A stretch of DNA of 64,000 nt from Sarcocystis neurona (lineage: Eukaryota; Apicomplexa; Conoidasida; Eucoccidiorida; Sarcocystidae): contig KL647332.1 in NCBI GenBank assembly GCA_000727475.1, positions 211,496 through 275,495 of the forward strand, read 5' to 3'. The notes beneath the pieces were generated by a model that saw nothing but the letters and a program-made list of their open reading frames with translations, was not told the origin of the DNA and made no database searches. The position numbers and the translations under genes are program-made. This document shows positions 5,258 to 60,644 of this stretch, in pieces (within the stretch, counting starts at the first letter, position 1; each line of letters opens with the position of its first letter).

Positions 5258-5577
5258 ATGAATGTTTCAGTGCGAATGCTGTGGCTCTTCGCCCTGGTCG
5301 CCTTCCTCTACGTGACCGGGTACACTCGCCCACTAATTCACGCTCAGGAACATGAGGATCGCGCAGAACAGCCATCCTTCTTCGGACGACCTTCCCTCAG
5401 CACGAGCCACCAAGAACCAGAGATGGTGGCACCGGATACGCATCAGGGCGACGTTCCCGTGACAAAGGAGGAGGACATCGACGAGGAGGAGTTTGTGGGG
5501 ACAGGAAGGATACACCACACGCGCAGCCGAACAGGAAGCCAAGTGTCGCGTAGAAGCATCACTAAAGAAGACTACGC
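5258..5577 (+). CDS. exon 1: signal peptide and acidic region
   Basis: ATG at 5258 (or in frame at 5276, just after a possible 3' splice site TTTCAG at 5265-5270) starts a hydrophobic signal peptide containing MLWLFALVAFLYVTGY. The region after it is polar and acidic, with a KEEDIDEEE run, then TGSQVSRR. The exon is open to a stop at 5708, but the donor GTACGT at 5578 leaves phase 2, which exactly fits the acceptor at 6050-6051. The layout (signal peptide, acidic stretch, then a TM helix in the next exon) resembles small secreted dense-granule-type proteins of coccidia. That is a resemblance of layout, not of sequence. Confidence 0.65.
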
Positions 5578-8500
5578 GTACGTTCCTAACCAGACAGAGT
5601 CGCCTGATGAAAATGCGCAGCCTGCCACTACACAGGTTGAACCAGGGCTCATGCCATTAAGCATATTAAGTGAAACACTGTACTTTTTGCTGTTGGAGGG
5701 AAAACAATAGTCTTGCCACTTCGTTGACGTGTGCGCGCAGAGTCTGTCATACAGTAGAACGAGTGCACGTGTATGTATTCCGTTAGTCAACACCCGACCA
5801 CATACGTACATATATATCGTCAGAATGCTCAGGATGATCACGCAGCACGGTTGCAGTACGAATCCGTCACACTTGCCTTGCGCCGCCCCCTAGTAGTCGC
5901 TGTGCTGTGCAACCCATGTCAAGCCTCATATCAAGTAGCTTGTCCATCAAAAGAAAGGGGGCAATTGCGTACGTCGCTCAGCGTAACGAGTCAGGGTCTA
6001 ACTGCACCGACTCGCTGCAGTCGCTGCGACTTATGCTGTCTTTTTGCTCAGACGCACCCCGCTGAACGTCGGCAATTATACGGCGATCATACTCGTCGCA
6101 ACTAGCGCACTAGTATCTTGGATCATCCTGACTCGTCTGTTTCGCACGACGTTGCAGACGGCAAAGGAACCCCCTGGTAAACTATTAGCAAAACCCACGC
6201 ACCAAGTACGCGTACCCACTCCTAGCGTTATGAGAGCGAGGCACTTCAGTCGTATGGAACGGGAACGTATCCGTTTCCCCAGCCAATTGTGCCCAGCTGC
6301 GCAAATCTGTTAAAGCTTTACAACTCTGACAGCAAGACCGTTCCATGGTGACTCCACTGATCTGGTGCTCTGGCGCCTCACTTGCCTCTCTACAGTAGTC
6401 CCCGAGTTTTCCTTATTTCTGCGAGTAGTTCTTTCGCCGGTGAGCTCAGCGATGCACCCCGATCAGAGAAAATATCAGCCTGCGTGAACTCTCACCCACG
6501 CGATGTCAACAATTTCATGTTCGCAAGAGTTTGGCTTTCTACCGTGGGATGTTGCAACGCTCCTATGTGTACAGCGCCGGCTTTGTTTCAAATTTTACAG
6601 GGGAAGCAGAGTAAGCTATCTTCGAGCGCCGGTCAGGCATACGAATGGATGGTGTGACTCAATCTGCAGTGTACTGGCTAAGCTGCAAGGGAATTGAACG
6701 TGCGCCTCAAAAGCGCTCCTACATTCGTTGTGGAAAGGCACAAACAAATTCACTTGCTGTTTGTTTCCTCTCTCATTCGCACTTACAGGTTGGCAGTAAG
6801 CCTCCAAGATCTCTTTAATCTTCCGTCACACACTCGGTGTGTATTACGAGATGAAGAGTCCTGTCGGTCAAGCCTGCCGACGGCGAATAGCGCAGCACAC
6901 GTTTTCGAATCACGACTCAAATCCATCTGAATAATTCACAGAAATTGTCTACGTAGAAACCTACATCTGGTTGCGGTGAGTGCGACTTTGCCACGGCATC
7001 TCCTCATGAAACCTGAAATCCCAAGGAAGTCGAAACAAGCATTTTGCGGAGCTACGCCTTGTTTTCACTGTGAGGCGCGTTGCCCTCTTCCTTTCTCGAA
7101 CAACCCTATGGATGTTGTGTCTGCGCTCAACGTATATCTAGCTAGAGCCCCTTCGTGCGGGACACGCATGCCTTTGAGTCGTTTACGCTTGAGGGTTTCA
7201 CCGTTGGCAAGCAGAGGGTGGTTCCGGATAACACTGTACCGCAGCCTGAGTTGATGCGCAGGTAGTACTGTTGTAGAACAAGTAGTTCTCCTTCCGGTGG
7301 CGGCTGTATCGACACGTGGACGGGCTGGTAGAACTAAGCGCCCGGGAGTGAAGACGGTACACCTCCGTGTTTCTAGCGTTGGGCATGCGAGTCGCACGGA
7401 CTTTGTGCACACAAGAGGGTAGAACAATGCAGACGTGTGTAGAGGACAGGACGGTACAGACGAAAGAAACTTCAGACAACGAGTGTTCCGGCTGCCCTCC
7501 CTGCCCGCCTGCATAGACGTTTAAGCCAAAGCGTGCAAGAGGCCGACAAATACACTCACCTGCGGCTACAGATGACGCCTTTAAAAGTTCGAGCCTACAG
7601 CTCCACGTCCCCGCTCATGTCGACGAGTCTGGTATATGTGATTTAGCTCAGCACTGCGGCCTGAATTCAAAAACGCATGCAGCGACTGCCACCGTCTCCA
7701 CCTTAAGAGGCCGTCGCAGCTTGTGGACGTCGCTTGATGGTTGCGCAGCAATATGGTGAGTAGAGACACTAGAACTTCAACAATGCAAAGGTGATAATAC
7801 TATCTCCAAGCACGAACGTGTGCTGGACTTTTTGTTTTGCTGTCCGCAGGAAGGGCAAGAAGTCCCTGCAGTGAGTTAAGCGCCGTTCAGCTCCAGTGCG
7901 GGTGTAACGCGACAACATTTAGGAGGCAGACTCTGCTTTCTTCAATATATCAGTGTGCACAGCTGCAAACGTTCTTAACAGGTCATGTTTCTAAAGAAAC
8001 CAGCATACTGAGTAATAATCTTGTAACTACGTGGCCGACGCAGAAGTGCAGTCTCCGTTCCAGTAGCCTCCGTGCAGCAACCTCAGTCAATTCAAGCAAC
8101 GCACACGTAGTGCACAAGTTCAAAGTTTATGCTTCGACCTATAGTACGTGACCTAACTGGTAAATGCGGAAGATGGCGTGAATTCTGCCAATTATTTCCA
8201 AACCTGCCTTTAACAGAGCGTGTCCTTCTTAGCTTCAGCTCTACCCTGCAATAATACTCGCTTCTGTACTTTTCTACGAACGTGTAGGAAACGTACTTCT
8301 CTGCAGGTAGCATCCTCAGTTTCCCATTTCCATCCGCAAATTCTGCAGTGATTCATTCTACAGTAAAATTTGGTCGTCGTTCCGTTCCCTGCAACAGCTA
8401 CTTCGGAGACGGCACTAGAGGATGAGGCAGCGTCTTCTGCCATCAATTGGATCCGAGTGCCTATGAGTCGCTTCTCTCCTCAGAGTTGTATGATATGCAA

Positions 8501-14500: not shown

Positions 14501-17500
14501 CTCTCCTTGTCACTGATGTCAGATCCTTGACCGGTGTCGTATTACTTGGGCAACGACGGTCCAGTGAATCACAATGAGTCTTCCACGGATATCGAGTGCC
14601 ACGCACTCTGCAGCAACACGAAAACATAAGAAAAAGCAGACGGTACCGTAGAAAAGTTTCCAGATCATGCCTGTAGTCGTCGTGCTACTGCTCTCACGCG
14701 TGGTCATGTGTCGCAGGTGACACAACGCCACACTACGCAGGTGTAGGCTGTTTACCAGTGATAAGCTATTGCAAGCTGTAGATCAACAATGATAGTCGCA
14801 CGGAACTGCGAAGCTGCATAAGAGTCCTGCTGAGAGACAGTAACTCTGACAGCAGTGACCATTCCGTGGTGGACAGATCTGGCTGGTACACGTCAGACCA
14901 CATCAACCGTTTTTTTGCCAAACAGTTGAAGGGAAAACTCCCAAAATGCTCTTCTTGAGTTTTCCTCCACGTTGCTTGCTTGTCGTGTCCTCTACCGGTA
15001 CAGCTGATAGTCTACAGCTGAAGAGCCGCGTGGCACACCCGTTTTTAACACAGTCTTCAACAAAATAAAGAAGGCAGCGTTGCACTACTCGAGGCACTCT
15101 CCACATGAAAAAGCCGCTCTTGTAGGATCATTTCTAAACGGGCTTCTAAGTGAAAAAACAAAGTTGTTCACTAAGGGTGAGACCCCCTAGAGTTAACGTA
15201 TTGCACGCCAGGCAGACCAAGGTCGAGAATACACAGTAAGTGCATACGTGTGAACTCTATTCACACTTCGGCATCGCTCTCTCTCTCTCTATATATATAC
15301 GTATACACATATCTATATATATACATATATATATATATATATGCATATGAAACCCCTTACGCCGGAGCGTGAATTAGGGTAATCGCTTGCGTTCTGCTAG
15401 TCCCTCAAGTGCTGAAACAGTCATATGGCGCCGCCGCCTTTTTTTACTCCACACCTGCACGAGATTCCTGACTTTGTGAGTGATTCGACGCATTCATCGC
15501 CTTTCATATTCACAGGTGCTGGGCTCTCCCGGCTCTGCCATTGACTATACATTGGTTTGTGTGATTGTGAATTTTTTACAGATTAATACCTTAATGGTGA
15601 GTAGCTAGCGTATGAGCTGTTCCAGAAAGAAAGTTCCTCAGCTGTGGGCTCAACAGACCTGAGACTGCAGCTTGCGAGCACGTGTAGTCGCCAGCAGAGA
15701 ATCTTGTTTGCCGTGCACCGGGCGCAAGATTCCAAAGGTTCTGAGTTGACCCACGGGGGCAGGTCCGCGAATTCTCTCATGTCTCCAAGAGATCTTGTTT
15801 ACATCGTGACGCAGTCCCAGGCGGTAAGCGTGACACTACATCAGGAAAGAACACTAGGACTCCACGCCGACATTTGACAGGAAGCAACACGCAAGGAAAG
15901 AGTGCTACATTGCTGAAAAAAGCTTACGCGATGAGCGGAGGCAGGCGGCTGTCACAGGGAAGGCATCTCGCTTTGAATTGCATGGATCTGAATGTAAGCT
16001 TGGTGCCCACCTGCGAGCCCTTTTGCTGGTGAGGGCTGCCAGCGAAGCTCAGTCCTTCACACATTTCTGCATGACTACCTTCAGGGCAAAGCTGTCGGCA
16101 GCACGGCAGCTTGACACGGGTGTCTGCTTTTGTTATCAGCTCAGCTACCAGGGCGCTTTCCCTTCTTCTTTGCTCGCCGGGACACAGTTGTGATGCTGTC
16201 GAGTAGAATTACCCCACAGACACGTCGTGCTAGTGACAGGGCGTGAAACATCGAAGCGCGAAGTCATTGTAGCTACTACCGAAGTCCAGCGTGGCAGTTT
16301 CACGTCAGAGATGTGCGTGAAGGCTGTTTTCGTGCGCCGATATTGAGTTGTGCCGTTTTGTTGGTTTTTCGAGCACTGCAGAGGTCCACTTCAGCTGCAC
16401 GTGGCCGTCTTGACGCTTCAGGCTGTAAGAACTGCTTTTAAAGCCGAACACGTTCTCCGCCACGTTTCCCGCGTGGCGTTGTCTTTGGCGAAATACGCCA
16501 GAAATGTTCGGGTGCCTCGCGAGCCCGGACCCCGTTCAGCAAAGGACTGACTAGACACAGAGGATATGTACGCGAGAAGTCGTGCGCACAGGCCCGCGGC
16601 TCACCTACCAGCTTGCACTGTCCGATATGTCAAGACGACAGCACGTATATTATGCCATTGCCTCTGCCGATCCGGCGTGTGCAAATACTTCCTTGACACG
16701 GTGCACACGCGCGCCAATATATTCGGTGGTCAAAGAACAACATTTAACGTCTATGTCAACGCTCGTGATTTCCGCGTGTTAAGTATGTGCCGTCTCTGCA
16801 TTTGCAGCATCGGGGACTGCTTGGGCGCAGATGTGGCCTTGGGAAAATTTCTGCCGCATTTCCACTTCTGGGGGTGGTGTGTACTGCACACGTAGTGGTC
16901 CTGATCGCTCACATGCCCCGCACCTCCACAAGTAAATACTCAAGTGCCTCCTGCGAAATACAACTAGCCTGTTCGCTCGCTTATGACGTGTAGCTGAACA
17001 TGTGGGCGCTCTACGTGAAAGCACAAGCAAAACGACTCTGGTCTTCAGCTTGTATGTTTCACCGCCACAGTACAGCGCGTGTAAAGACGTAGAGACCTGC
17101 TCATTTCGGTACTTGAGGGTCACCCATTTTTCGAGCCACGCCCTTATTTCCAGTGCCACCAGCACCGAGACACGTGTGGAACCTCCGCATGCACTCTCAT
17201 TCGACAAGCCACAAACGTGTTGATTTCGAACACACACACCAAGTTGGTAGGTTTCCAGACACGAAAGAAACAGTGCTAGGTTTTCCGTTCGGCGGCCTCC
17301 TTGCTGTGCCAGAGGACATGCCCAATTGAAAGCGCATGTTTTGTACTAACGTACAAAAGAGAGGATCGCGATTGTAGAAGCGTTAAGTGAACTACTGGGT
17401 AAGAATCGTGTAGAAAAAGCAGACACGTACGAACTTAGCGTCTTTTTAGAAACGGAACGTTGTGTGGTCCGTTTTGATTGGGCAAGCGCAAGAAAGCTCC

Positions 17501-20500
17501 TGCGGCACTAAGCCTTATGCTTTGTGGTACACTGGAGTGGCTTCTGCGGTCTAGAACGTGGTAGTTGGAAGAAAGGTATGCGCGTGGCGCTGGAACATTG
17601 CGATTGCTTGTGAGGAAGACGAAGTCCGTGGTCCATGCAGAATAGGGGAGCACTCGCGTCAAGCTGTCCGCGGGAGATTCAGATAATAACGACACTGAGT
17701 ATCAGGTGGTTTGTTGTTCTGAAACTGGGTCATTCATAAGTATCTTTTTGAGAGCCTTATCTGCTAGTTGGACTACTGATATAGAGAACTGTACGCTCCC
17801 CTTGTTTTTGTCATTGCGCTAGTGGATTGATCCTTGACCCCGTACCTCCTCATGTACATTTGCGAGGACTGGCGTGGCACCCTGACTTATCCGTCCTCGT
17901 GCCCGATCTGGTACATCGATGTTCTTTTCTGACCCCTGTAAACAACGACCTACGGAACCTATAGCGACTCGATTCGTACTGCTCGGAACCACAAGATGTC
18001 CCTCCTCTGAGGCTGGGCGTACATGAAGTTCGATTGTGGTGAACGTGAAAGATTGTAAGTCACGGGCGTACTGTGCCAGTCGAGTACAGCCGCAGTAGTG
18101 TAGGCCTCCTGTGGCAGAGGTAAGGCGTGACAAGCATCCAAGGTAAGACACAGTGTACGTACATGTATATATATATATATGGCTGTGGCCTCTGGAAAAA
18201 CTTGTATTATCTACATCTCGCCTTGTTCATTTGGCATTGTATCTGGCGGCAGTGCGTTGATGACATGGGCACTTACAAGCTCAGCACCTGCGAGGGCCCT
18301 GCAGACACAATCCTCTGCAGAGGCGTGTCAGGAGGCACACGAGTTGGAGCGACGTAGTGGCTTACGTCGGCACTGTTTTACAGGTTCGTGTACAACCGCA
18401 ACAAACTATGAAGGCCAGCGGGAATGCACCTATTAGCTGTGTTCATCTACCGGCTGTGGAACCGCACCGAAGTATCCTACATTCACGTGGTGTAGCAGTC
18501 GGTTTTGTGTTGCAAAGGAGTACTCAAAGCCGCGCCAATCCTCAACGACTTTCAGGTGGTAGGCGCAGACACGTGGCTGCGACTCGTCGAAGGCAAGGAC
18601 AGCCTTCACCTTCTCGCAGAGAAGCCTTGCACGGTCCTCATACACCAGGCAAGATCGAGTGAATTCGGTCGTTTCTCTCAGCATACAATCACGGTAGTTG
18701 TTTTGGACATCCATTTGTACAGTCGGTAAGCCGCCTGTCCTGGGCTTGTCGCGCCACTCAGCCAGTTGCCGTGCCGTCAGCCAGATTGGTCATTTAGTAT
18801 TGCAGCCCGCCCTAGTGTGCAAGGAATGGCGACTGGTCACAGGCTTCTAACCCGCGCACTGAAGAAAACTGTTTTCACGCAGAACGAGTGATAGGTAAAC
18901 ATATCGCCCCCGGCTGCGACAAAAAAACATGTTTCACTGCGTCTCCGCACCTTGTACTTTGCAAAGGCGAACACTGTTATTAACGCCATGCATTTTTCGT
19001 TAGCTGGCAAAGCGGTGCAATTCACCTTCTGGGGAAGCGAGATTTGCTAGAGGTCAGAGACGCAAACAGAACGCGTCGCAAGAAAATCGTTCGTGTGATT
19101 TAGCAGAGAGTTTTTAGACAGCATGAAACACTCCGCCAGAGACGTGTAGTATCAAAGGTGGAGCTACGACCGTTTCACTTTGTGTCGTATCCGTAGACTT
19201 CATCTTCAATCCTATACTACGTATCTCAGAGCTGCGTTAGTGCGCCTGGAGGGGTGGCAAAAGAATGAGCGCAGAGCTCCTTTCGATCTTAGGTTTATGC
19301 CGTTGCCGAATTGATACTACTGGCTAGTCCTTGATAGATGCCATTGTGCGAGCTTCATCGACGCTTGCGTTTTGTTTTTCAGCCAGTACGTAGTCGTTGT
19401 TTCCCGTCTTGCCCCTGCCGTCACAAGAAGAATGCTTTGCGTTGTGTCGTCAGACGTCTGCGCTAAGTGACATATCATTTCTCCTCAGGTGGAGACACGA
19501 AATATTGCAACGAACTGCTACGGGGCGTGAAGTCAGAGAGATCTTCAAATATGGAATACTGCCAACCTTCTCGTTGCACATCAGGACTGTGGGTGCCGGA
19601 AACGCGGTAAAGTGACACCTGAGAAGGACGGAGGCGTTCGAAGGCGCTTTTGCAGGCCCGTGCACGTGTTCTTCCACAGGCGACACCGATCAGGCCTCTG
19701 TATTTAGGCAGAAAGAGACGCTAGTGGAACTAAAGCCTGTGTCAGTCGTCTGCACTGGGTCGAAATTGTAAGGTATACTATTCTTCCAGAAAAATAAGGG
19801 TCGACACGCCTACCCTTCGAAAAAAGCTTGTAGGTGTCTGCGAAGACTTGAAGTGTTTGCTCTGCGGGGAGCGCGGAAATAGGGATCTCTGAAGTTACAC
19901 AGTCACACTGCTCTAACACCAGTTGCATCTCGAAGTACGGATTTGACGAACGGTATAATGCAGTTAGTGAGAAAGACTTGCCTTGCTGCTACCTGATGGC
20001 AGGCGTCCATCAGCGCAGCAAGCAAAAAAGCAGACAAGAGACGCTTGACGCACTTCAATGCGATTGTACACAGCAAACAAGACGTGAGAGTGTACATCAT
20101 CTTCCGGACCACGACCAGCACCACCAGACGTCACGCTTTTGCCTTTGTTATCCGGAAGTCGCAGATGCTTAACAAGTTGCTGAATCTATCCTTTATCACG
20201 GCTGCAGGTCGATCCGAAAGTAAGACCATAAGATATCTCATTGACTCGGCAGGGGCTTAGTGCTCTTTTTTAGAGGCGTAGCTTTTTGTCTGCTACCGAC
20301 ATCCAGCACGTACGTTCTCACAGCAGTGGTCGCTTTGCGTGTGACTGCTTCAAGCGAGTAAGTGGCAGCTTCAGCGTTTGGGGCAGCACTTCTCCACGTC
20401 GTGGCGTTTTCACTGCGCCCCGGCTTTTCACGTTAAGCCTCAGAAGTACTTGCTGCAGGCTACGAGCCACTTAACGGCTTTTGACGTTAAGTCTCAGAAA

Positions 20501-29500: not shown

Positions 29501-29698
29501 AGAGCAGGAGTCTCTCGTATCTCGCCTGCATACTTTGGTTGCACAGTTTTTTCCGAGTCCCCAGCTTCGCTGCAAGTAATACACCTGTCAAGATGTTGCT
29601 GGCATTTGTGGTGTAGCTCGCCGCAACATGAAGCGTACAGCATCGCCACGAGCACCTCTTCATGAGCCTTCATAGAATCACTGATGTTGCACCTTTTG

Positions 29699-29739
<41 letters not shown>

Positions 29740-30381
29740 NNNNNNNNNNNNNNNNNNNNNNNNNNNNNNNNNNNNNNNNNNNNNNNNNNNNNNNNNNNNN
29801 NNNNNNNNNNNNNNNNNNNNNNNNNNNNNNNNNNNNNNNNNNNNNNNNNNNNNNNNNNNNNNNNNNNNNNNNNNNNNNNNNNNNNNNNNNNNNNNNNNNN
29901 NNNNNNNNNNNNNNNNNNNNNNNNNNNNNNNNNNNNNNNNNNNNNNNNNNNNNNNNNNNNNNNNNNNNNNNNNNNNNNNNNNNNNNNNNNNNNNNNNNNN
30001 NNNNNNNNNNNNNNNNNNNNNNNNNNNNNNNNNNNNNNNNNNNNNNNNNNNNNNNNNNNNNNNNNNNNNNNNNNNNNNNNNNNNNNNNNNNNNNNNNNNN
30101 NNNNNNNNNNNNNNNNNNNNNNNNNNNNNNNNNNNNNNNNNNNNNNNNNNNNNNNNNNNNNNNNNNNNNNNNNNNNNNNNNNNNNNNNNNNNNNNNNNNN
30201 NNNNNNNNNNNNNNNNNNNNNNNNNNNNNNNNNNNNNNNNNNNNNNNNNNNNNNNNNNNNNNNNNNNNNNNNNNNNNNNNNNNNNNNNNNNNNNNNNNNN
30301 NNNNNNNNNNNNNNNNNNNNNNNNNNNNNNNNNNNNNNNNNNNNNNNNNNNNNNNNNNNNNNNNNNNNNNNNNNNNNNNNN

Positions 30382-30421
<40 letters not shown>

Positions 30422-45400: not shown

Positions 45401-48400
45401 GCGGTGAAATAATGTCGTTTGTCAACGTCATATTTCATGGTAAACAGCGTCTGCGCATCCACGTAGAAATGTCGGTGCAATGGATACAGACTCACGCTCT
45501 TCTACGGAGTGGAGGTGTGCATCACAATTTTCCTTTCGCCTCAGTCGCTTACGGTAAGGCCTTAAATGGAGTTTGGTCGTGAACGGACAAGGTTGCCGAC
45601 ACACAGGCAGTCTGACGCCACAAGCCATAAGCCTGGAGCCCTCTGTTCCAGGATCTGCTAAACAGTGTACATATGAAAGCCCGTAGATCATCGGCAACTG
45701 CAACACCTCGAGCGCATTCATAGGCGGGCAAATACTGGTCGAGCCAGCGCACATTTGTATACTGTAGAGGAAACGGACTTCGTGAGCTCATTTCAGCGTA
45801 GAAAACGAGTTTCTTGTTTACAGGTCACCTTGAGGGTCTTTACCCAGCCTCTTCCGCAGCCACTCATTCGGCCTCCTTTCTGTTTTTCGAGAACTAGCCG
45901 CATTCTGACGTAGGATTCTGCCCTCCTCTCTCGGCGCCAGACCACCAATGTATGCGGGCTTTGCATTTCTTCCAGGCTTTATGAATTTCTGGTTTTCTCC
46001 ACCCCTTTTGCGGCGCAAGGGAATATCTGAGCAAGCGTGCACAACGGGTCACAAGCGCAGATCGGACCTTACAAAAAACACGCAGTGTCGATTTCCACAG
46101 ACAGGAAAGCTACTTCCTATATTCTCTTCGCCGTGTTCTTAAGCATGTAAGTGTGATGTGCGTTCCGGCTGTTCTGTTCGTAAAGGTTTCGTATTCCCCA
46201 TACTCTGACGTGCAGATCCCCCCTGCAGTTTTTTTGATCACACAGGAAGGTATTAATGCAAAACTTGCGGGTAGCTATGCAAGTCTCAATGACATGAGCA
46301 GCTCGTCCGCAGCTGCACTACCAGGCACTGCAGTTTCCTTATGTCATCGCTCGAGGTTATCGTTTGTACGTATGTGGTCGAAGGAGGACGTAAGAACAAA
46401 CAGACGGCGCCGCTCCTCGGAGAGTGAACGGATTGAACACCGCGAGAGGGTGAAAAGGAAAGTCCTGCCACACCTTTGTCTAGAGTCTCTTGATTCAGAG
46501 GCTATCCATCTGGCGAAGTTTAATTTTCATCAAGCGCGTAAGTGGGGTTGCACCCTGCGGTGGTAGTCTGCGTACGTGATTAGCCACTGCAGCATAATAT
46601 ATCAAGTGCAAAGCATAAAAAATTCGATGTGGCTACACCCAGAACGTGAGTCGCCAGTAGAAAATAGGGAGCAGCGATTCACCCCCTCTAACAGCTTTTA
46701 CGCCGATACGTGCACAACTGAGAATAACGCAGCGTCAGTCGTTTCTGCGTGTACCAACCATGACGTAACAGCTTCCTTTACGTAGTGTGACATCTTGAGT
46801 GGACTCAGAAAACAGCTGGCTCCGCTTCCGAACAATCAGCTAGTGAGTGACTGCGTGACCCGTCCCTCACGCAGACGCTCTGTTGTGTAGAGAGGGTCTG
46901 CAGGTGATCGACGACCCAAGCTGCTGCTTTTTCGATGTGAGCTGAGTGTGCGCTTCACACCTCTGTAACAAAGCAGCACACACTGACCGGAAAGAGCCTC
47001 CAGTGCTCCTCCCGATAGTTCGTTGTGCTCCTTCAAAGCTTCCGACACGCGGGCAGACATATCGTCTATGCGGTGACAGCAGGTGAGAAGGGTGGCGTGA
47101 ATATTTTATGTACAGCGGCGGATTTGCCTTTCCTTGCTTCGGCCTTTGCAGCCCCCTAGGTTTGCGCCTGCATTTTTGCGAGCTCAACACATGCAGATTC
47201 ACCGATTCTCTTCGTTTTATCTCCACCATCAAAATTTCCAAGAACAACTAGGGCGCCAAATGGTGTACGCGAGTGCGGTTCACGTCGTCTATGCTTTTTC
47301 AGCGGGTAAGTCGTGATTTTCGTGTCGGTTCTGTACCGCGGACCGTCCGGTACGCGTGACAGACAACTAAGAAACGGGTGCAGAAGTAGGTCTTCAAAAC
47401 CGTTTTCATCCGCTGTGGAGCAACGACAGGAGATGGTAAGGTACTAGGTCGTAGTCTGCGTCACAGTTTGAAGCTTCCTAGTGCACTCGCACTAGTTCGG
47501 GGAGATACACGTGACATAAACACCGATGTACAGGCCTCTTCTGCAAAAAAAGTAAAGACCTGCATCACTCCTGTATCCCAGCCGAGTTTACAAGATTTAG
47601 ATACCCGTGAACCTCCGGGTAAGGCTGTTAACGCACCCGACCGACGGCGTCTCTGAGTTTGGAAACCGTTTTCGTGTAGCGAGTATGAAATACATTCTAA
47701 ATTTGAAACTTCATTGTCTATACTTATAGATAAAGGACTGGCATCGCCCTGTTTGCGCTAGCTGGTCAGTAGTTTGTAAAACAGTCGAGATTGTACAGAT
47801 TTCTAAACCAACAGGGGGGGGCACGCGTAGGTACCCCTCTTAGCAGTTTTGCGTTCGTCTCTCGGCTCTTCCAAGAAGTGCAAAATCTATTCGCTAGCAA
47901 CGCACCACAGGGTAGACGGAAAGCTGCGTTTAGGCACAAAGACGTTTGCTTTCGTCTGAGCTGCACCATTGAGATCAGAGTGCCGACGTAAATGGTAGAG
48001 AGTAAGTGCCGCAGTCTTTTTTCAGCATTGTAAGTCCAAATTCGTTGGCGCGAAAAGGGCTTACGAACACCTGTCGTGCCGTTTTCTCTGTGGGCAGGCA
48101 GTAAGCGCAGGTGTGCACATATCAGTAGTGGTCTATGAAAACTCTGAAGGCTTGATATTTTCACGTCATCTGGAGCTGCGACTGAATGACGTCGGCTCTC
48201 TTCTACAGTTGGTGAGCCTTACTTAGTGAAGTTTTCGATGTGAATAGATATTTCAGAGATACTAGATTCGAAGTGACACTCTCCTCCTACTGCAGCAGTG
48301 GACTGGTCGTGCACCTACAGCTGCCACCGGCAATCAGGAGGTAAGTCGCATCACGCGTGTCACACGCGTCAACTGCCTGTAGGCTTCTCCGGTGCTTTGG

Positions 48401-51400
48401 AGTGTAAGTGTGTGTCAAGCTCCATCCTATCCCTAGGCACGGCAACTTGTGCGCGTTCAGCATTAATCTACACGGGCATATACAATTTTGGGCGCAGTTG
48501 TGCTCGCATGCACAAAGGTTTCGGTGTGCGTGGATGCACCCGCGGCTGTGAAGTTTACTAAAGAAGTCAAATTTATTTCAGAAAAACTTTTAACGGATGC
48601 GCGTGGCGTAAACGTGCTGTCCTAATAAAGCTGGTAAGGGGTCGCCGGCAAAGAACGTACACCAGTCACACCATACACCGCCCATCGACTAGTTTTAGAA
48701 AGTTGTTCTTTGCAGGCCACCGTACAGCCAAAGGTCGTGACAGGGGAATGCGTCTGATGGTGAATGATGGCAGAGTGTAAGACAAATCTGACGCGGCGCA
48801 GCACGCGTGTAGCCGGCTGCGATGAACCATAACATAGCTGTATAGTGAGCACACAATTCGTGTCACCTCTCACCCATGCTTAGGAATGTAGGAAGTTGCG
48901 AACTTCCGCGCCTCTTCGTTTTTCATGCGGGCTTTCAACAGGACGTGAGCCTTGCTATCTGCTAATGCTTTACTTAGGTGGTTTGTTAATTAAGTGTGTG
49001 CAGGCCAGCCCAGCTTCAGCAAGGTGCTGTTCAATGCTTCAGATTGCGTCAACCGGTTTTTGCTCACCGACGGGCCAGTGGATGCAACTGTGCCGCTAGA
49101 ATTTGTTAGAGCTATGACGGGTGTGTGTGGCAATGCTGCATTCGAACGAACCAGAGGCCACCTAACCATATCAAGGTGGCTGTAAGCGACGTCTACTGCT
49201 GCTTTGCCAGGCAGTAAGTTTCTTCGGTGGCCCTGGGTACTGGGTGAGTTCGAGAGCGCTGCAGGTTCAGGATGTGCCACGGCTGTGCACCTAAGAGGTT
49301 CTGGGGAGACTACGCAGCGTGTCGGGATTATATCGCCTGATGGTGGGTGTCACTGTGAGCCCGTGGTAACGGATATGTGCCGATGATTTTGCTCCCAAGA
49401 AAGGTAACGAGTGTGGGGAGACTAGTGCTATTCCAACCTCGAGCACCTCCTCATGTCGTTTTCAGTGACACGTCGGCCGACCTTACACGCGAGTGTGTTT
49501 GCGATAATAAAAGCTGGTGAGCATACGAGAACGCCCAACGCAGTTCATCTGTGCAAGCGAACGGCAGTATTTGGGGGCCTCCAACTAAAAGGTAATAGTG
49601 CGCCAATTTAGTGCAGAAGGATCGGTGGGTCTCACGCATTGCAGCGTGTAAGAGTAATCTCCTTACTGCTACCACTTTCACAAATTAATTCTCCTATACA
49701 GGAGGCTGTGTAGTAGACATGTTGTCACCTAAACACACAAAGCGGCAACACCCTTTCGGTGTGGTTTTACACTGCTGCTGGGATCCGTGTCGCGTTTGTG
49801 GATAAAAGAAATACATGCATCTGTGTTGCTTCTCTACACGTTCCAGCAGTTATCGATGTATTGTTTAATTTATTACTAAGCGAGTAAGCCTGATGCTCGT
49901 TGCTGTTAAACCGTGCTTTACCATGACAGTGGCAGATACGCGAAGAAACACAACTTGGAGTAATTGCTGTGTCTCGTATATTCTGCACAGTTTACTGTAC
50001 ACAGGTGACGCCTCGTTTTGACTTGACTCAGTTTCGTCTCGTTTGTACTCTTCAAAGCTTGTACGTCTTTCTGCGCTACTCCTTCGCAGTAAATGCCGAA
50101 CGTGTGCAGGTTGGGTGCTGTTGCTGACACAAACGTCTGCGGCACCAAGCGAGGGTCCCTCAGGTAAGCTACGGGCCATCATACATGGCGTGTTTTCTAC
50201 GTCTTCGGGGACATTCCGAAATCAGTCAGTAGGCACGATGGCGCATAATGAGGCCTTCCGTCCATTCGGTGCACTGTTTAGCGGATCCACTCTCAGAGCA
50301 CGCGAAACACTTCCTCTCTCTTTGCTACACGTCCTTTTTCTGTTTCGGCTCTAAATAATTCAGTTCGTAAGGATCAAAACACTAGTTTTTCACCGGGCGC
50401 CTCTGGCAGCTTCCTGGACGATCCAGTCGTGCACCCGGCGTTTCCGTGAAGCCGTGCCTGTAGAATGCTCACTGTTGCATTCTTTCAGGTGGTACGTCGC
50501 AGTGGCCTGATAAAGCCTGGACTTATTAGACCGAGTTTGGAGCTTTGTACCTCGCGAGAGCTTCGATTCAACGTTTTTCGATACACGTCTACTTTTTCCG
50601 TCGAAACAAAGATTTAGAGAACGGAAAAACCTGTGCGCACATCGGAATGACGCGGACGTGCGAGCAGCTAGTAAATAATTATATTAGCACAGTCAGCGGT
50701 CTTTCGCTCCAACTCCAACAAAACTGCAGTCACCCGTAAGGTGGAGGTCACTCGTGGATGTCCTCCTCCACTGGTTCTTCTGTACGAGCTTATGCAACAG
50801 TCGCACCGTTAGGCAGTGCTGCTGCTACATCTTGTTTTGAAATCTCCGATGAGAAAAAGAGCGCAGCTAGCTTGCCACGTCATTGTGGGTCAGAGGGCAG
50901 CATTTCAGAGTAAACGTGCCATTGAGCGCTGGCTCGTTGTCTTTGCTGGCATTATTCGAAAGCGGCTAGAAGAATTTTGTTGTTGTGCGTCTAACGCTTC
51001 TCAGGTTGCGGGTTCGGTATGCCCACAGTAAAGTCGTTTGCGCCGCGGAAGAACAGGCTGCTTCTATGGAGAATGACTCCGTTACAGCTCGCCTTCAAAT
51101 ACAATTATGCGCTTGCAGGGCTCCTTCGACGACGATTTTTCAGTGTTGCGGAATGTCCACTACCGGGGGCACCTTCTTGTTTTTGCCAATACAGCAAGTG
51201 AGAGCGCTTTTCTTCGAACAAACAGACAAGGTGCTTCACTACTGTGAGGCAAGGAGATCTGTTGGCGATGAATTCTACGAGGCGGCCGCCGCCTTCTGTA
51301 GAGTATTTTACATTCTTCTTCGGTGTGCAGTCGGTGTGCTGTCGGGTTCTGTAAGCGACATAGCACATCTGATGATTAACGTGAAGCCTGCGTGGTGTCT

Positions 51401-54400
51401 CTGTCTATGGGGACCTACGCACGCGCTAGGTACGCTAGTTCTCGGTCGACTCTTCATGGAGTACTTCTTCGCCATCCGCGTCTGCCATTCAGCTTGTAGG
51501 TGAAGCAGAGCTGCGGTCTACCTTGGAATTACACGCTAGGCGACGCATTCATGTGCCTGTGTTAAGAATAGGCGACGCCGGCACGGGTGGTCTAAACGTT
51601 CGCATCTGCGGGCTTCTTCGTAGCAATCCATTAGGTGTCTGTATCCACGCAAACCCGCCGTTCTCCTGAGTACGCGCACGGTATGGTCATGTGTTGATAC
51701 CTTTCTAGCTCCTCGCTTTAAGTAAACATCTTCGATGAGCCACCCCAAACTTGTTCAGGACGTAAGCTTTGTCCAAAAAGCGGCCACCGTCAGCACTGCC
51801 AGTCACTCCGACAAACTACGCGTGATGTTACTGCCTGTCATTCCGAATACTCCCTATGACTCAACAGCGATGACTTTTCGTGTTATTCTTGCGACGAAAG
51901 CTCGTACGCTGACTAAAGGAACAGTGTGTTGCACTGAGAAAAACGATGCACTCGGACGTGCGGCAACGCTGGTACATATGAACGGAAAAACTTCATGGCT
52001 TCTTCCCCAACGCAGACTGTACGTGACAAACGGCCATAACGTATGACAAGTTAGGCAGCTCGTACTTAGTGTGAACTCTCGCACCTGTATTTAGCAGACA
52101 TCAACAAGGAGACGCGTCAGTTTCATACACATCACGGCGGAAAAGCTAGAGAAACCCGTTGCGGCCGTTCAGGAACATTATGACACGTGGCCTGCCGTCG
52201 TTTTCGTAGTGGCATTCCGCTTCTTTTTATATTCCGTCTATACCTGCGCTAAGGTCCTCAGTCATTGTCCTTGTGTCAAATAGGTGGTAAGAATAGAACA
52301 AATCACCTTCCTTCGCTGCAAATGTAATGAAGCTGTCCCGCATTCAGCAGTGAACCCCCCGTGGAAGACTTCTGCTCTTAAGGTGTACTCGTAAGAGGCA
52401 ATATCGTCGTAATGCGAGATGCCACCTGCACCTGTTATCTTAAAAATGCCACCCTCAAGACGTGAGCAGTAGGCGTGTAATCCTAATTTTTCCTCCAATT
52501 CTTACTAACAAAACAGCCGGTAAGGTCGCTCATTATTTACGATCAACGTGCCGTTAACAGTCACACCCCCGTCTTTCCATAAACAGAGTCGAAGAACGAT
52601 ACATGCGGTTCAGCAGATGCGCAGCAGCCACACGCACTAACTCGACAGAGCGGGCGAGGCCACCACAGGATACGTAACAGCTAGAACGGTCTACACCGAA
52701 ATTCCGCACGTCACACAGAGACTACGCTGGGAGGCAAAGGCTCCGCCGGGCGCGTGCAGCGCAGGCAACTGCATCTCACGTAATTGTTAAAATATGTTTT
52801 CATCGTGTGCTCCGCCAGTGGCGGATGCGTAAAGCAGCGCTTTCAGCGTCGTATTTAGTACACTATCTGTACCCCTGAACGGCCTGCTAGATGCCTGTAT
52901 AACTCCATCCAGGTCTTTACAGGAGTCCCTTTTTTGAGAATGACTTTTTGAGAAAGTCACCACAATGCGCAAAGCTCTGTACAACTGCGATGCAGCCGGT
53001 AGGTGTGTGCATTGCTGCTGGTTCACACACACTGAGTTGGGTAAGTGCGTCTACAAGCATCGCACCTGAAGTAGCGGGCATATTGCGTGGGCCCTTGCAG
53101 CACAACTGGTAGTGACGAAGCGTCTTTGATGCAGTGCATTCGCCGTCAACTACTGCTTAGTATGTAAGTGCTCCAGTGTCGTTTAACGTAGGCTTCCTTC
53201 TGGCTTTACCACAAGGGCGTCCCGTTGCAGCAATCTAGATGCTACGGCGCTGAATCTGAAAAAAACTCGTACCCCTGCAGGCAACGCCAGTGTGACGGGG
53301 AGTGCCATGCAGCGCTGTACCAAATCCGACGACACACAGACCAGGACTTCCTCACTCTTTGTCTTCTGTCTTATGCTGGTTTTCGGCTTAAATCGAGCAG
53401 AAAGTGCGTGCGTCAGCTCTAAGCTGCCGGGAACGGACAACGTAAGAAAAGAGACCGGAAGTGATTGTCTGTGGTTCTGACCGCTTGACCGAAGTAGCAT
53501 CGTAAAGTGCGCTTCTCTAACAAAACACAGCTCGTAAGACGTTTGGCCTCAAAACAAAGGAGTATACCACTATTCCTTGTGAAGTTGGTGCCTGGATTGC
53601 GCTGGAGTTCAGTGTTTCCTGAGGACATTCAGGTCACATTTTTGGTGAATGCTCTGGAGGACGCCATATCTGCCAGAACGTAGGTGCATTAGGACACTGT
53701 CCTTCCTACGACTCAGGAACTATTACACCAAAATACTCATGCGTAAGAATGGTAAGCCGGAGAGCAAGGACGTCTGCTTCGACGTTTGGCTCGGTGAAAG
53801 TGACTAAATTATACAAATCACTCAGTGGGTACGTCCAACGTATTGGATTGGATTTGGCAAGTTTTGTCCGGTACAAAACTAATTAGCCAACTAAAAGTCT
53901 GTTCATCTTGCCGTCGGCCAGGTCGTCGGCGATGGCGTTGACGTCTGCCGCTCCACAGGAGACGGCTTTCCTATTGACTGACTTGCTCTGATCTCAAGTT
54001 CCAGCCACCAGTATGTCGATTTCCGACCAGCGAGGAGTAGGTCTTACAAAAGTGCACTGTGTTGGTCAAACAGTTGTTTCGGACGTCTAAATACAAGATC
54101 ACGCATAACAGTCGACCTTTGACTGTGCGTTTTTGCAGTGGAAACTGTAGATGACCGTTCTCCGGCACCAGCAAGTAAGCGCGCAAACCTCTAAGTATGA
54201 ATACGAAGACACTCAGGCGTGCGGAGCACGAGTCAATTCACTGAACCATTCTTGGTACCTCTTGTGCTTCCGCAGCGCACTGGTAGCCCTTTGTATTAGT
54301 GCCTGCTGGAAGTCGTCTTGGCTCGGACCTTTTCCCGCACCTGAAGCCTTAATCCCGATCAATCCGACGTGCAGCTGGTAAGGCTCGTTGTTGTTTCGAT

Positions 54401-57400
54401 ATTGAGACATGGAATGTTCAAGAGGATGTAACCGGAAGCGATTCAAAATAAGCTCGTTCCCTAATAAATAGTTTTCATTGAAGAACGGCATCTACGCGAG
54501 TGTACCTGGAAAATGCACAGGTGGTATGCGTCCCCCGCAGAAACCGTCAGGAGTTTTTTTTGCGGTGGTACTTCCTGAAACTGTTGACAACTCCAGCTGA
54601 CACTGATGAAGTGTGGTAGCTTGTGTCGGGCTGCGGTTTTCCGCCGACAACGTGCAGCTGGTGAGCAGACAACGGTGCCTTCCCCACCTGGTGCAAATGA
54701 GGTCACCAATCTGCATTATTTTTCCTTCAGCGCAGCTTCGCACGTTGCCGTTGTTAGTCGAATTGTGAAATTTCACGAGAGCCGGAAGGCGGCGGGTGCC
54801 GTAGTACCCGTGTAGCAGGAAGCATTGGGGCACCGACGCCGACGAGTAGTTGACTTTGTATTGCATTACTTTTTGCTGCGAGCTGTTCGTTTTCGGACAT
54901 AAGTGGGACACGGCTCACAAGAGGAAATGCGTGTCAGCCGGTGAGTCTCTCCCACGGTCAATGGTAGATAACTTGTAGTTCGTGAGTGCCATCACCATGC
55001 GTCTCTCTGACTGTCAACGAATCCCTTCCAATGATGCTGTTGCAAAAGCGAGTGAGCTGAATGCCCAGCGGGTGCTTGGAGTTGAAAGAAAGGGCCGCGT
55101 TCCGACGACCGACCACCTGTGTCCACTATCAGCAATATCTTTGAGGCCTGAATGACTTCCTGTCACCCCTGTCACCATAGATCGTGAGCAAATTTACATG
55201 ATACGATCTATTTCAGTATGCACGCAGGCGCAGACGGTCACATTCTCTGGTGGAACTCTGTCCACCACACTTTTTTTGTGAGGCAACGCGGCTGCTGATG
55301 GTGAAGCTGTGCCTCGCTTGCTTATCTGAGACTCAGCTGTCGAAGATTTCTGTCATCACATTTCTACAACTGTTGCAGTCTCGTCTGTGCCCTGCGTCAG
55401 TTGAAGTGCAGCATCGACCTCACTCAGGTGGGAGAAAACGAAATCCCGCCTTTGGCATACATTTCATGGTAACGAGCAGTTGCCGTCTGGAGTCAGCCGA
55501 TTGTGTGAGCATCGTCAGGATCAATGGGACAGCAACAGAACGCCGTCGACATTATTGCCGAAAACCCCTTTTCCTAAAGAAGGTGAGGTACCAGCAGTAT
55601 TAAGGTCAGCAAACAAGACTGCGCAGGGCTGTTCACGCCAGCATAACTTTTTTCCAAGCGCAGTTCGATGGAAACAGCTGCGTTCGACCAAGCAGTAGTA
55701 TTAGCCTGCTGAGACAGAGGGGGCTGATAACCAGATGCAGGATCTGTAAAATATACTTCCGTAAGGCTCAGAAAAAAGCGGTAAAGGAGTCTCAGAGCGG
55801 AGAATATGTATCGTGGACACGTCCTCCTGTCATTTTTAAAATAGATAGCGCTCCACTGATGTTACTGGCGTAACTCACCACAGGTTTCAGGATGACATGT
55901 ATGTAGTCCATTACTCGTGACAGAATCGCACGCAACCTGGGTACAAATAACGTTTTGGTTTCGTGCTTCAGCCTTGCTGTAACTCACGGATTTCTTCGTC
56001 ATCCATTTGCAAGAACGTCGCGACTTCCCTCTGAAAATACACAGGTCAAGTCCGGAAGCACATCCCAGAGACACACGAAGTGCATGATGAAGACGGGAAT
56101 GAAGAAGGAATGGAATTTGATAATATTACGTCTCCGGGAAACAGTGAGCAGTTGCACCCGTTGTAGCGTACGCAGAAGTGTTTACTGCCGCGTACAAAGG
56201 GGCTAAAATGTAGCGCTATGTGTCATGCTGAGCAGCAGCCTTTCTAACACTTTAGATAGGACCCCGGAATTGTCCAACAGTAGTAGACAGTACACGTGTG
56301 GTTCAAGCTGTGTTCGCGGTACACCAGTGTTTTGCAAACTGCAGTGAGCCTCGATAATAAGACGTCGACTTCTCTTGGACCCCCGGGCTAAAACAATCTT
56401 GAGTGTGTCATTCGAAAATCATAGGGAATAAAGGGGAGGAGGTGGACCGTACGGTGAAGCTGTCAACAGCTGATAATTTCTACCTTCTTGAGCTCACGGG
56501 TGTCGTTGCGTTTGGTGTTCAGGGCTACAACCCATCCCATTTAAAGCTCCTCGTATTGCTTAGCTTCACCAACACAGGAAATACAAGTAAAGCCACATTA
56601 CTGGTGCAGGAGGTTCCTCCACGTGGGTGTATTGGACGGCAGCGGCACCAGCGCTTCTTAAGGATCGTGTGCAGATCGCTTTATCCGCGAACATCTACAA
56701 ACAAACCACTAGAGTCAAGTTGTCTGCTTTGAAGCCATCCCCGTGTTGTGACCTCTCTCGTCGATATGTATAACTACCGCTTGCTCGTGTATGAGTTGCA
56801 CCTGTAGAAGGTAAGCGATGTTGCGCATTCCTACTACACGTACGTGCACAAACGATTGTGGGGTGCCACTGCGTGTCTGCATAAGTCGCTTGCTCTTCCG
56901 CTGCTGCCCGACGACTCGCAAGCAAGTGAGAATCCTGCTGTGCATTCGCGTCACTTTTACCTGCCTTCAAGCATCTTGAAATCTGTGTGCATCGCATAGG
57001 GAAAAAAAGAAACCAGTTTATATGCAGCTGAGGGGGCAAAAAGAAAGACCTCTTCCACTTTAGGCATACGTTGTCCCTGAAGCTCAGCCGGGAAATCGTG
57101 CTGCCTCCCTCTGCCAAGGATGTGAGTTTATTTAGAACTATACCCGGGGTTCGCCGGGGTCTTCCGCAGAGTACCGAGTGCTTTGTGCGCCAGTAGCAAA
57201 CCAAGTTCAGAATTAATGTAGTCTCCGCATAGAGTAGGAGTTCAGCGTTATTGCAGTGTTACTTTACTCCACCGTTCTACGTCACTTCTTAGACGGAAAG
57301 TCGCCTTCCAGACGAATGACTGTAGATTAGAACAACTCCGTGCTGCTGCCAGTGCTAACCGTTTTGCATGGTTGGATTCTGGACTCGCGGCTGCTCGTCT

Positions 57401-60400
57401 TCGGGGATGATTACAATGCATCGAGCCTTCTAGCCAGAAACGCTTCAACCTCAGCTTGTGAGTTCGCGGGGAACAAATACCGCGCGCACGCGGGGCTCCA
57501 GTTCCAACGAAATGCTACGCAGCTTGTCACGTTCTTTTATGTGCACCCGTACACATCTCGGACAGGTACGTTTTGCGTGTGACACAGACTGTAAGAGATA
57601 ACGTTGTCTGAAGGGAAGCTTGCCACTGAGGAAACGAGCCATTGATGACGGTACTGCGGGTTCACGGAAAGTCGCACACGGTACCATTTTGTGTCTGCGA
57701 AGGACGTAAGACGTCAACCGGTCTCAACACGTAGCCGCCTACCAGGAGAAAAAAAACCTGGATTGGTCCTACTGACGTTTCGTGTCTGTGTCCTTATAAC
57801 GTCCACATCGTACACGTGTCAATATAGGCATTCCTGAAAACAAAAACTAAAGTGAATAGCTGACTGTCTCTCCACTCTTCTTCAACAAAAGCGGTTACAC
57901 TGGAAGTCACAGCGGACGCATCCGTGTACCAGCTTGTAAGTACTGAGTCAAGGAAAATGCCCGTGGACTTCACAGCGGCGCCCGTTTAGACACGCACAGT
58001 GCTAGTCGCCACATGTGTAGGGCACCCGGCGAAGAGCTACGCGTTCAGCGTTTTTGTATACTTGTAAGCCGTGAAGGGGGCGTGGACAGCAATGAGGTAA
58101 ATACAGCTTGTGGGCTGGACTGTCAGCTTGGTGCACGCAAATTCGTAAAAAGCACCTGTATTACCTGCATAATTCCAGATTGTAAATCCACTCCCCGCTG
58201 CATCACATTTTCGTCACCGTAAACGGTGCACCGCAAGATGACGCATTTATTCAGACTTGGCCGGATGGATATACTCGATTATCTTCTGCTCGTCACATCG
58301 CACTTGAGGAGGTTCACGGTCCACCAGAAGGACACCTCTTGTTCATCGCGTAACCTGTGAATGACAACGTACACTATAGTGTATATCAAAAAACACAAAC
58401 TTGTGGCGCGCATTACAGACAGGTCATTAAATAGCGGCTCGGCTGCTGCTGCCGTCCGACGAACAATACTTACACAAGAATGTGAGGCGACCAGACTACC
58501 GGATGAGAAATAATGCTGCGATCTGGGGTACCGTACCGTGACGCTGACGCTTGACAACGTACCCTGGACACGCACAAATCTTTGTAATGCTACGTCTAGC
58601 TAGTGAGTGGTGGACAGCCAGTTACCCAACATATGAAGCTGGCTGTGCTGCTCATAGCTGTGACTGTGACAGTGAATAATCGGAGCTTACCTGACTGCGT
58701 ATGCACTGTTGAATCTGCTGCGTGAAAAGACTGTAAGAACGACCTTGGAAAGTCCTCTGCTTCGCGCGTCGACAATCCTGGTCACTCGCATCCACTCTTT
58801 TCCTGAGAGCTTAAAAAAAGAGGTAGTGCCTTCTGTGGTAGACGTGGCGGTGTCTGGTTGTCAAAAGATGTATCCGTCACCAACTTCAGAGCTGACGAGG
58901 TGGCTCCCGTGGGACTTGCAGCAGAGCAGAAACTGTGGCGTCTTCAAACTCAGTCCGTAAGACCAGCACGCATTTACACAGGAGTTTCACTGGAAAGGTG
59001 CAACATGACGATATTTGAGTTGAACAGGTGCACCATTAACGGTCGTGCAAAAGATATTCCGGTCACCTTGAATACAATGTCTTAAAAATTCATCAGGAGG
59101 TAGCTAGACAGGAATAGTAGAGCACTGTGGCGCACATTCTAGAGGGCCACACAGCCTTACACATATTTCCATCGGTAGATGCGAGCATCACGGAAAAATC
59201 GGAACGGTGGTCCTTGAATGCTTTGGAAAAGTGGAGTTGTGGTGCACCACAGCAAATTAACAGTGACGTGCTTGGCTTTTAGCTGTACCGAGCGAGCGCG
59301 TTTCGTTCAAGGCCGGAGAATTTTTTCAAAGTGCACGACGCTTATCGTATCAATAATTACCACCAGAGAGTAAGCGAACGCCCCCGCTAAAATATGGCTA
59401 GCCTCAAAATTATGAAGCCCTGGGTGGATACTTTGCACAACGTGATGCATGGATCGCGGCTTCTTACCACCCCTGTGTTGACTCAGATTGTACGTATAGA
59501 CGGAAATCCGCCATGTCTCCACTGCAGTCAACTTCACCTGTCGTAACTCTAACTGAAACACTTTGCTGGTCAATGCTCGTCGCTGACGTTCTTTTATTAA
59601 TGGACAGTATGTAAGCTCCTTTAGCCGAGAATACCGGAAGCCGCTAGGCGAAGAAAGTCTTTTTTTCGCATTCTTGCCGACCGGACTTCCCGCGAGTGGT
59701 GCCTCTGACAAAGTTAAACAGAGGTAACATCAGAAGTCTCAGGAGTGCTGCAAAATTGAACTACCCACCACAGCATTTCCAGCGCACTGCCCGGCGGGGC
59801 GTCGTTGATACCTCCAACACTAATCGCAAAGATGGTAAGAGAAGAAGCAGGTTTTTCCCCACGTCTGTTGCGTCACACGCTTGCACACAGTTTGTATCAT
59901 CTCGCGTATTCCGATGTGTGTTCAAATTCACATGTGATACCTCGTATGATGCTCCCGTCGAAGAATGGGATAGTCAACCGGGAGGAATGTCTGACGTCTG
60001 CGGGCTTAGGGAACGCCAGCTTATGGAAGCGACGCGTCAAATTCTGCCAGTCTTTCTTCGTTAAATTCAGATGGTAAAAAAAGATTCTAAACCTCCACTG
60101 CAGTTCCACCAGAAGTACTTAACTACAGTCATGATGTAAAAAAAAAAGTGTCTGCACCCGTCGCACGTCTATCTACCGCAGATCAGCGACACTGCACCTG
60201 TACACCAGTGAATACTTTAGATATAATACGGTAGTCGGTGCACTATAGATCAGGACATGTTTTACGTCTGCCAATTCAGCTCTCATTTTTCTCCGCGACG
60301 CTTTGTGTCTGAATGTCCCAGCTACCGGAGTGAGTATATAATTGGCTTCGTCATTCCCTTGCACAGAAGCAGTAGGGTCCACATAGCTGCCATACAACTA

Positions 60401-60644: not shown

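Follow-up and report, generated by a model that had tools for sequence, protein, structure and literature searches.

Can the coding sequence of one gene be cut into exons of a single codon along most of its length? The question is raised by the window (the whole 64,000-nt stretch of DNA analysed), in which an examination by eye had pointed to a gene made mostly of 3-nt exons, each set between an acceptor AG and a donor GT. The distance between the two signals is given below as k, in nucleotides.

Acceptor-donor pairs three nucleotides apart

The motif (C/T/A)AG-Nk-GT(A/G)(A/G)G was counted throughout the window. On the plus strand 122 sites were found at k=3, as compared to 9, 8, 11, 13, 6, 12, 8 and 13 at k=0, 1, 2, 4, 5, 6, 7 and 8, respectively; the minus strand yielded 12 sites at k=3. 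A sharp plus-strand peak relative to k=2 and k=4, unmatched by an equal excess on the minus strand, is what the original prediction had foreseen. The stricter motif (C/T)AG-N3-GT(A/G)AG gave 78 sites, vs 1 at k=2 and 3 at k=4, and 6 on the minus strand. When a fuller donor set was used, 167 k=3 sites were counted in the window, 164 of them between 11,098 and 59,832, where about 140 had been estimated by hand (11 to 60 kb). Strict k=3 sites numbered 153 in a 44-kb stretch, with the dense run extending from 15,821 to 59,834; six sites at 11-14 kb, three of them inside one tandem repeat, were all left out of the array. The dense array of about 15.8 to 59.83 kb (44 kb) falls short of the gene of ~55 kb, beginning at 6601, that had been proposed.

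To describe the donors, all GTNNN pentamers were counted at 30.6-60.1 kb. At k=3 these included GTAAG 49 times, GTGAG 32, GTACG 23, GTAGG 10 and GTATG 5, vs means at other k of 3.0, 2.1, 1.7, 0.9 and 0.8, respectively; the k=3 excess is clear for the first four and small for GTATG. Outside these five classes no clear k=3 excess was seen in the same region. GTTGC (6 vs 1.8) was as strong as GTATG and was taken for chance because it does not have the donor consensus, and among other GT or GC donors a single case, at 34716, looked convincing. Positional profiles of the sites displayed HAG with C preferred, a weak upstream pyrimidine bias, GT, a purine at +3, G at +5 (not an independent feature, as it belonged to the motif by which the sites were chosen) and a preference for T at +6, and information was largely confined to the splice positions.

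In genuine 3' splice sites AG is depleted between the branch point and the acceptor. Upstream of the 153 acceptors the density of AG was 0.008 at -13..-4 and 0.024 at -23..-13, as compared to 0.074 and 0.068 at control HAG trinucleotides of the same region; over -23..-4, 48 AG were observed vs 205+-13 in random control sets. AG does occur within the last 17 nt at 18 of the 153 sites, which counts against the reading as a gene, and no branch-point motif stood out. When AG was disallowed in these last 17 nt, 135 of the 153 k=3 sites were kept and 7 were found on the minus strand; the same filter left 11 sites at k=6, 11 at k=9 and 6 at k=12, vs 1-4 at k=0, 1, 2, 4, 5, 7 and 8. Sites at k=6 and k=9, for which peaks had also been predicted, are in excess besides those at k=3, and perhaps those at k=12 as well.

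Only 3 of the 152 introns between consecutive sites were below 96 nt, the commonest lengths being 120-139 nt. Intron lengths were spread over the residue classes modulo 3 as 57/48/47, with no preference; it is the length of the exon that is a multiple of three, and not, as had been stated, the spacing of the sites. The claim that the introns are unrelated in sequence held up, with only 2 pairs similar at E<0.01.

The array is local. In the whole 123-Mb genome, both strands included, YAG-Nk-GTRAG gave no k=3 excess (13,488 sites at k=2, 10,765 at k=3 and 11,482 at k=4); these are bulk totals, with which a few further genes of this kind would be compatible. Twenty 10-kb pieces of the same contig (three of them wholly N and others partly N) gave no k=3 excess either.

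The triplets were also read as codons. In phase 0 none of 158 triplets was a stop, and the shifted frames of the joined string held 9 and 6. Column-shuffled triplets of the 153 strict sites contained a mean of 4.0 stops, and none in 1.0% of trials (P=0.010). Codon-usage scores did not separate the frames (means of 0.075, 0.050 and 0.105 for frames 0, 1 and 2) and give the reading as a gene no help.

Comparison with a second copy

When 4 kb of the array was used as a query, a collinear stretch with 85% identity was found on another contig, C44, and the comparison was extended to C44:224001-269000 (window 15130-61370 against C44:224007-269000). Of the 153 sites 152 could be aligned, and 136 were present in register. 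Retention was lower in the controls: on the minus strand 6 of 15 sites at k=3 and 50 of 126 at other k (0-12) were kept, and on the plus strand 45% of those at k=0-20 except 3, 6, 9 and 12. Identity reached 0.96-0.98 at donor +1, +2 and +5 and at acceptor -2 and -1, and it dropped to 0.86 in the five bases past the donor, as compared to 0.97 in the donor's own five. AG densities upstream of the acceptors of the copy (0.011 and 0.026) were like those of the window.

The 136 retained triplets, picked by splice motifs alone, differed between the copies at codon positions 1/2/3 in 9/4/18 cases, where 20 would be expected at each if neutral (P of 0.005, 9e-6 and 0.72, respectively; neutral rate of 0.149, from the 14.9% difference in the surrounding sequence). 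Fifteen of the 27 changed codons were synonymous vs 29% expected (P=0.003), and no stop was found among the 152 aligned codons of the copy. Since third codon positions, which lie beside the donor, are conserved no more than the introns, splicing constraint alone is insufficient for the 9/4/18 pattern.

These data bear on several other explanations. A repeat family, or an array of a DNA-binding motif that mimics splice sites, could account for a recurrent short motif with a strand bias; we give it practically no credence in view of the almost unrelated introns (the 2 pairs above), the confinement of information to splice positions, the AG exclusion, the codon-like substitution and the lack of a genome-wide k=3 excess.

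An additional scenario is that the splice sites are genuine and that a single long intron is removed recursively (as by a ratchet), with the triplets as stepping stones that do not stay in the mRNA. Recursive points are typically of the zero-nucleotide AG|GT form, a zero-length exon of which no codon is retained. An acceptor 3 nt before a donor resembles such a point with a minimal exon, and conserved splice signals alone do not prove that a triplet is retained. Against this, the 9/4/18 pattern, the synonymous bias and the absence of stops would be unexplained if the triplets were discarded, zero-nucleotide AG|GT sites are not enriched here (3 sites at k=0, the background level), and about 150 stepping stones in 44 kb would, in our judgement, far exceed the need. 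Described cases share with the array a donor right behind the acceptor and stepwise removal, and concern introns of tens to hundreds of kilobases, a range that includes the present 44 kb (PMC13149111). We regard this scenario as very unlikely.

The exons might also be a relic that was functional in the ancestor of the two copies and has begun to decay in one of them or in each. Over the span compared, 18 of the window's sites are missing from the C44 copy (about a dozen of the 18 appear genuine), and only 2 sites are private to it; this imbalance suggests that the copy (C44:229001-269000) may be shedding one-codon exons or decaying. As an account of the window's array itself, a relic is quite improbable: neither the 158 window triplets nor the 152 aligned codons of the copy hold an in-phase stop, and neutral decay since the split predicts a retention near 40%, as in the minus-strand controls, and not 136 of 152.

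Taken together, the AG exclusion, the lack of in-phase stops, the retained sites, the codon-like substitution and the purely local k=3 excess uphold the proposal of a gene made mostly of 3-nt exons. It is very probable, judging by these signatures in the DNA, that 15.8-59.8 kb is one plus-strand spliceosomal gene with a coding sequence cut at almost every codon, with about 145 one-codon exons and some 20 of two to four codons, and with a protein of about 230 residues. We infer that the triplets are joined in one mRNA.

The homology between C44 and C45 extends past the array, 9 kb of the right flank matching C44 (83% in the longest piece). The two contigs are of almost equal size (445,001 and 443,200) and are 77-88% identical in the pieces compared, including that from C44:291783 on. 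A 3-kb sample of C1 showed no second copy apart from short repeat matches. The C44/C45 pair may represent a paralogous segment, a second species or a divergent haplotype.

Predicted exon chain and protein

A chain of exons was reconstructed by scoring splice signals, AG exclusion and two-copy conservation, with only phase 0 allowed and introns under 85 nt disallowed. A first chain, in which any phase was permitted, held false longer exons and was superseded by the phase-0 chains. The predicted chain comprises 171 exons with 693 coding nt in 44,020 nt: 147 exons of 3 nt, 9 of 6, 10 of 9, 3 of 12, one of 18 and one of 54, with a median intron of 192.5 nt. In the C44 copy, acceptor and donor are both intact at 153 of the 171 exons; the codon-position pattern of the chain (12/6/29) is not independent evidence, because codon conservation was part of the chain score. 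The predicted features are given below by exon start; exons without a length in brackets are of 3 nt.

15779..15823, plus strand: candidate for the first coding exon, MSPRDLVYIVTQSQA, followed by donor GTAAGC; the ATG-initiated frame and the donor are kept in C44 (MSPRNLIYILTQSQA)
15815-15823, plus strand: alternative to the candidate first exon, an internal 9-nt exon reading SQA
15815..21043, plus strand: array block 1, predicted exons 15815(9 nt) 16422 17049 17244 17785(6, weak) 18052 18556 18723 19383 19827 19964 20208(12) 20355 20758 21026(18)
21307..28667, plus strand: array block 2, predicted exons 21307 21424(9) 21638 21865(9) 22162 22723(9) 22918 23067 23195 23369 23666 23781 24244 24415 24666 25246 25389 25707 26167 26602 26829 27507 27641(6) 28665; not retained in the C44 copy: 21307 21424 21638 23666 28665
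29740..30381, no strand: assembly gap of 642 N within the array, between (CA)n runs; it could hide an exon
30476..40985, plus strand: array block 3, predicted exons 30476(9) 30679 31054 31191 31327 31504 31672 31807 31998 32100 32299 32477 32602(6) 32849 32985 33960(6) 34186(6) 34410 34533 35103 35245 35370 35538 35655 35786 35983 36240 36453(54, uncertain) 36773 36918 37049 37168 37280(9) 37382 37486(6) 37752(9) 38375(weak) 38552 39341 39691 39952 40096(9) 40309 40588 40977(9); alternatives: the 3-nt site 36504 instead of 36453(54), and a longer exon that starts at 40854 or 40890 and ends with 40977(9); not retained in the C44 copy: 31054 32299 37280 38375
34716..34718, plus strand: possible extra 3-nt exon (AAA) before a rare donor, GTGCG; the C44 copy has the same acceptor AG, codon and donor
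41259..46146, plus strand: array block 4, the cleanest run, predicted exons 41259 41469 41622 41893 42027 42196 42394 42702 42826 43027 43291 43452 43609 43745 43870 44005 44183 44311 44429 44561 44727 44846 45009 45312 45545(9) 46144
46384..50735, plus strand: array block 5, predicted exons 46384(6) 46535 46643 46840 47080 47303 47680(weak) 47815(12) 47999 48098 48209 48338 48631 48774 48942 49211 49514 49645 49881 50058 50226 50364 50489 50730(6); not retained in the C44 copy: 47680 48631 (gap in the copy) 48774 50364
51005..55582, plus strand: array block 6, predicted exons 51005(12, weak) 51195 51493 51759 51901 52016 52284 52517 52996 53161 53531 53677 53826 54031(6, weak) 54172 54375 54521 54658 54938 55049 55181 55580; not retained in the C44 copy: 51005 54375
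56808..59834, plus strand: array block 7, predicted exons 56808 56923 57119 57455 57588 57703 57933 58479 58600 58730 58954 59367 59487 59608 59832; not retained in the C44 copy: 56923
59832..60077, plus strand: candidate last coding exon, an 81-residue frame that opens with the ATG triplet of 59832 and closes with TAA

Block 4, with 24 predicted 3-nt sites consecutively at 41259-45312, would read LRDFRIGSYATALWMAAAARVGRI-SLT-H, one residue per exon except for SLT; the residues are identical in the C44 copy, where the donor of 44429 is altered. The first coding exon is probably 15779-15823; its differences from the copy (3/0/0 by codon position) leave its coding status not proven. The frame at 59832-60077 is open in both copies, with a different stop and with differences of 6/5/9 by codon position.

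The predicted protein has 231 residues, is leucine-rich and runs from SQAALLRTIVSPLLVDPKRSAELLKTLGDVVANYP... to ...DLTDLNLTSRIYM. Neither a signal peptide nor a surface-protein feature was recognised in this protein, and by eye no signal peptide was obvious in the candidate first exon. Protein searches with two composite peptides gave no match at E<=10 (both queries held exons later judged false, and the candidates were limited in length), sequence searches against the PDB gave chance-level matches or none, and with the 171-exon chain no Pfam family exceeded its cut-off.

Three family assignments were considered and rejected. A composite that contained the longer exon proposed at 46246-46365 and the 9-nt SLT exon matched UPF0176/TrhO (PF17773, UPF0176_N, with its EGIN motif) at E=2.3e-4, with 21.9 bits vs a cut-off of 26.2, and a hand-trimmed composite reached 28 bits (2.8e-6), above the cut-off; a weaker match was obtained with 3 of 6 shuffled-triplet composites (best E=0.018). 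This assignment was dropped because the two-copy test indicated that exon 46246-46365 is non-coding: it differs by 6/2/0 at codon positions 1/2/3, the copy reads KSINGKLARG, and the PF17773 match is gone without it. In all, 26 composite peptides were queried (the six shuffled ones not counted), and single Pfam E-values therefore overstate the case. For bL9 (PF01281/PF03948) there was one PDB match at chance level (E=1.2) and a likeness by eye, with no bL9 family among the Pfam matches. CitG appeared at E=0.0035 with one variant and 0.0069 with another, below its cut-off, and was gone in a stricter variant of the same protein. Of the exon model that was originally drawn, the 3-nt exons have stood, and the extent and some of the longer exons have not.

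Elsewhere in the genome, a TrhO/UPF0176-type domain (PF17773) was observed at C17:464405 inside a very long open frame that also has runs of glutamine and of alanine, and a bL9-type gene (PF01281, E=1.1e-12) at C6:2112131 in a 374-residue open frame; by its form, the product of the latter would be an organellar ribosomal protein.

Proposed splicing mechanism, comparable genes and genome context

Splicing of the predicted gene likely proceeds in steps by intron definition, each intron (mostly 110-270 nt) being recognised alone. Recognition would rely on a strong intronic donor (GTAAG, GTGAG, GTACG, GTAGG or GTATG, all with G at +5) and on the first AG past the branch region; once the upstream intron is removed, the three bases would close the exon assembled so far, and splicing would move on to the next donor. 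Three bases offer hardly any room for factors at both exon ends, which makes exon definition very unlikely, and short introns with self-sufficient donors would fit intron definition, one after another. The base that precedes the donor is close to random (G 44, T 35, A 31 and C 26 of 136), which suggests that the exon contributes little to donor pairing; a U1 pairing that rests on intronic bases would explain the G at +5 in all donor classes in excess. To our knowledge, the splicing of some 170 introns around 3-nt exons has no tested precedent, and it would be mechanically demanding.

As every intron would be in phase 0, a skipped 3-nt exon would cost one residue and no frameshift. It is a tentative possibility that ~170 splicing events build the 230-residue protein, for the most part residue by residue, and that each residue is separately removable in frame; exon skipping at the locus could in this way give rise to a very large number of variants with single-residue differences. 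A real micro-exon gene whose exons are subject to alternative skipping, with one locus encoding many proteins a single residue apart, a role put forward for flatworm micro-exon genes, is somewhat more doubtful. Any skip would be in frame, since all chain exons are in phase 0; the reconstruction imposed this phase, and the k=3 excess itself emerged with no such limit. The C44 copy has apparently lost about a dozen exons, one codon each. Regular inclusion, on the other hand, is in line with purifying selection on the codons, and the lack of a recognised signal peptide or surface-protein feature also speaks against such a role. Because the triplets are under purifying selection, their inclusion is taken to be mostly constitutive.

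The predicted gene is an extreme variant of micro-exon genes. In one definition these have at least seven exons, of which at least half are under 70 nt and divisible by three (PMC7653826); the 171 exons predicted here are all <=54 nt and multiples of three, the latter being imposed by the reconstruction and in line with a k=3 excess that was found without that restriction. Flatworm micro-exon genes, among which those of schistosomes had been named as the nearest known case, remain the closest: schistosome and tapeworm genes share with the array consecutive in-frame micro-exons of lengths divisible by three (PMC7653826, PMC10526429). Those of Schistosoma mansoni are described as having 10-20 very short exons, most of 15 bp, with introns of 0.1-5 kb and secreted products, and a minimum exon of 6 bp in the text and 3 in the abstract (PMC10526429). 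This superfamily pattern is not that of the present locus, for which about 170 exons, 147 of them of 3 nt, are predicted in a probably coccidian genome; the intron lengths overlap. Isolated 3-bp micro-exons, in which a single codon likewise serves as an exon, are exemplified by Drosophila homothorax, with one such exon in the gene vs a chain of about 145 here (PMC7392893). Fusarium CYP621A has an ultra-small exon of one nucleotide, with transcriptome support; it is the one such exon in its gene, and its length is not a multiple of three (PMC12940212). In the open-licence papers on micro-exons, including those on coccidia, Toxoplasma, Eimeria and protists, no gene of chained 3-nt exons was found among the matches listed, in keeping with the earlier statement that a chain of single-codon exons is undescribed.

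If the mRNA exists, the spliceosome is able to read a great many 3-nt exons in succession, with next to no room for exon definition or for donor pairing within the exon, which would set a new limit for splicing and provide a natural test bed for sequential intron definition. The gene would represent a class likely to escape standard aligners and gene finders, and with predicted exons taking up 693 of 44,020 nt, comparable genes may be missed in other genomes. It also raises the question of how introns reached nearly all codon borders of one gene without a genome-wide excess.

The SAG-domain family (PF04092) is known from coccidia of the Toxoplasma kind. Twenty matches to it were present in the genome, which is probably coccidian; PF11054 had no match in the genome, a search that shows little. 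An open frame at 5066-5707 on the plus strand, starting MNVSVRMLWLFALVAFLYVTG and signal-peptide-like by eye, is probably a separate upstream gene. On the minus strand, 62762-63325 contains an exon of an EF-Tu-type GTPase (HBS1/eEF1A-like by eye; PF00009, E=8.6e-14); its open frame, next to the predicted micro-exon gene, is long and of the ordinary kind.
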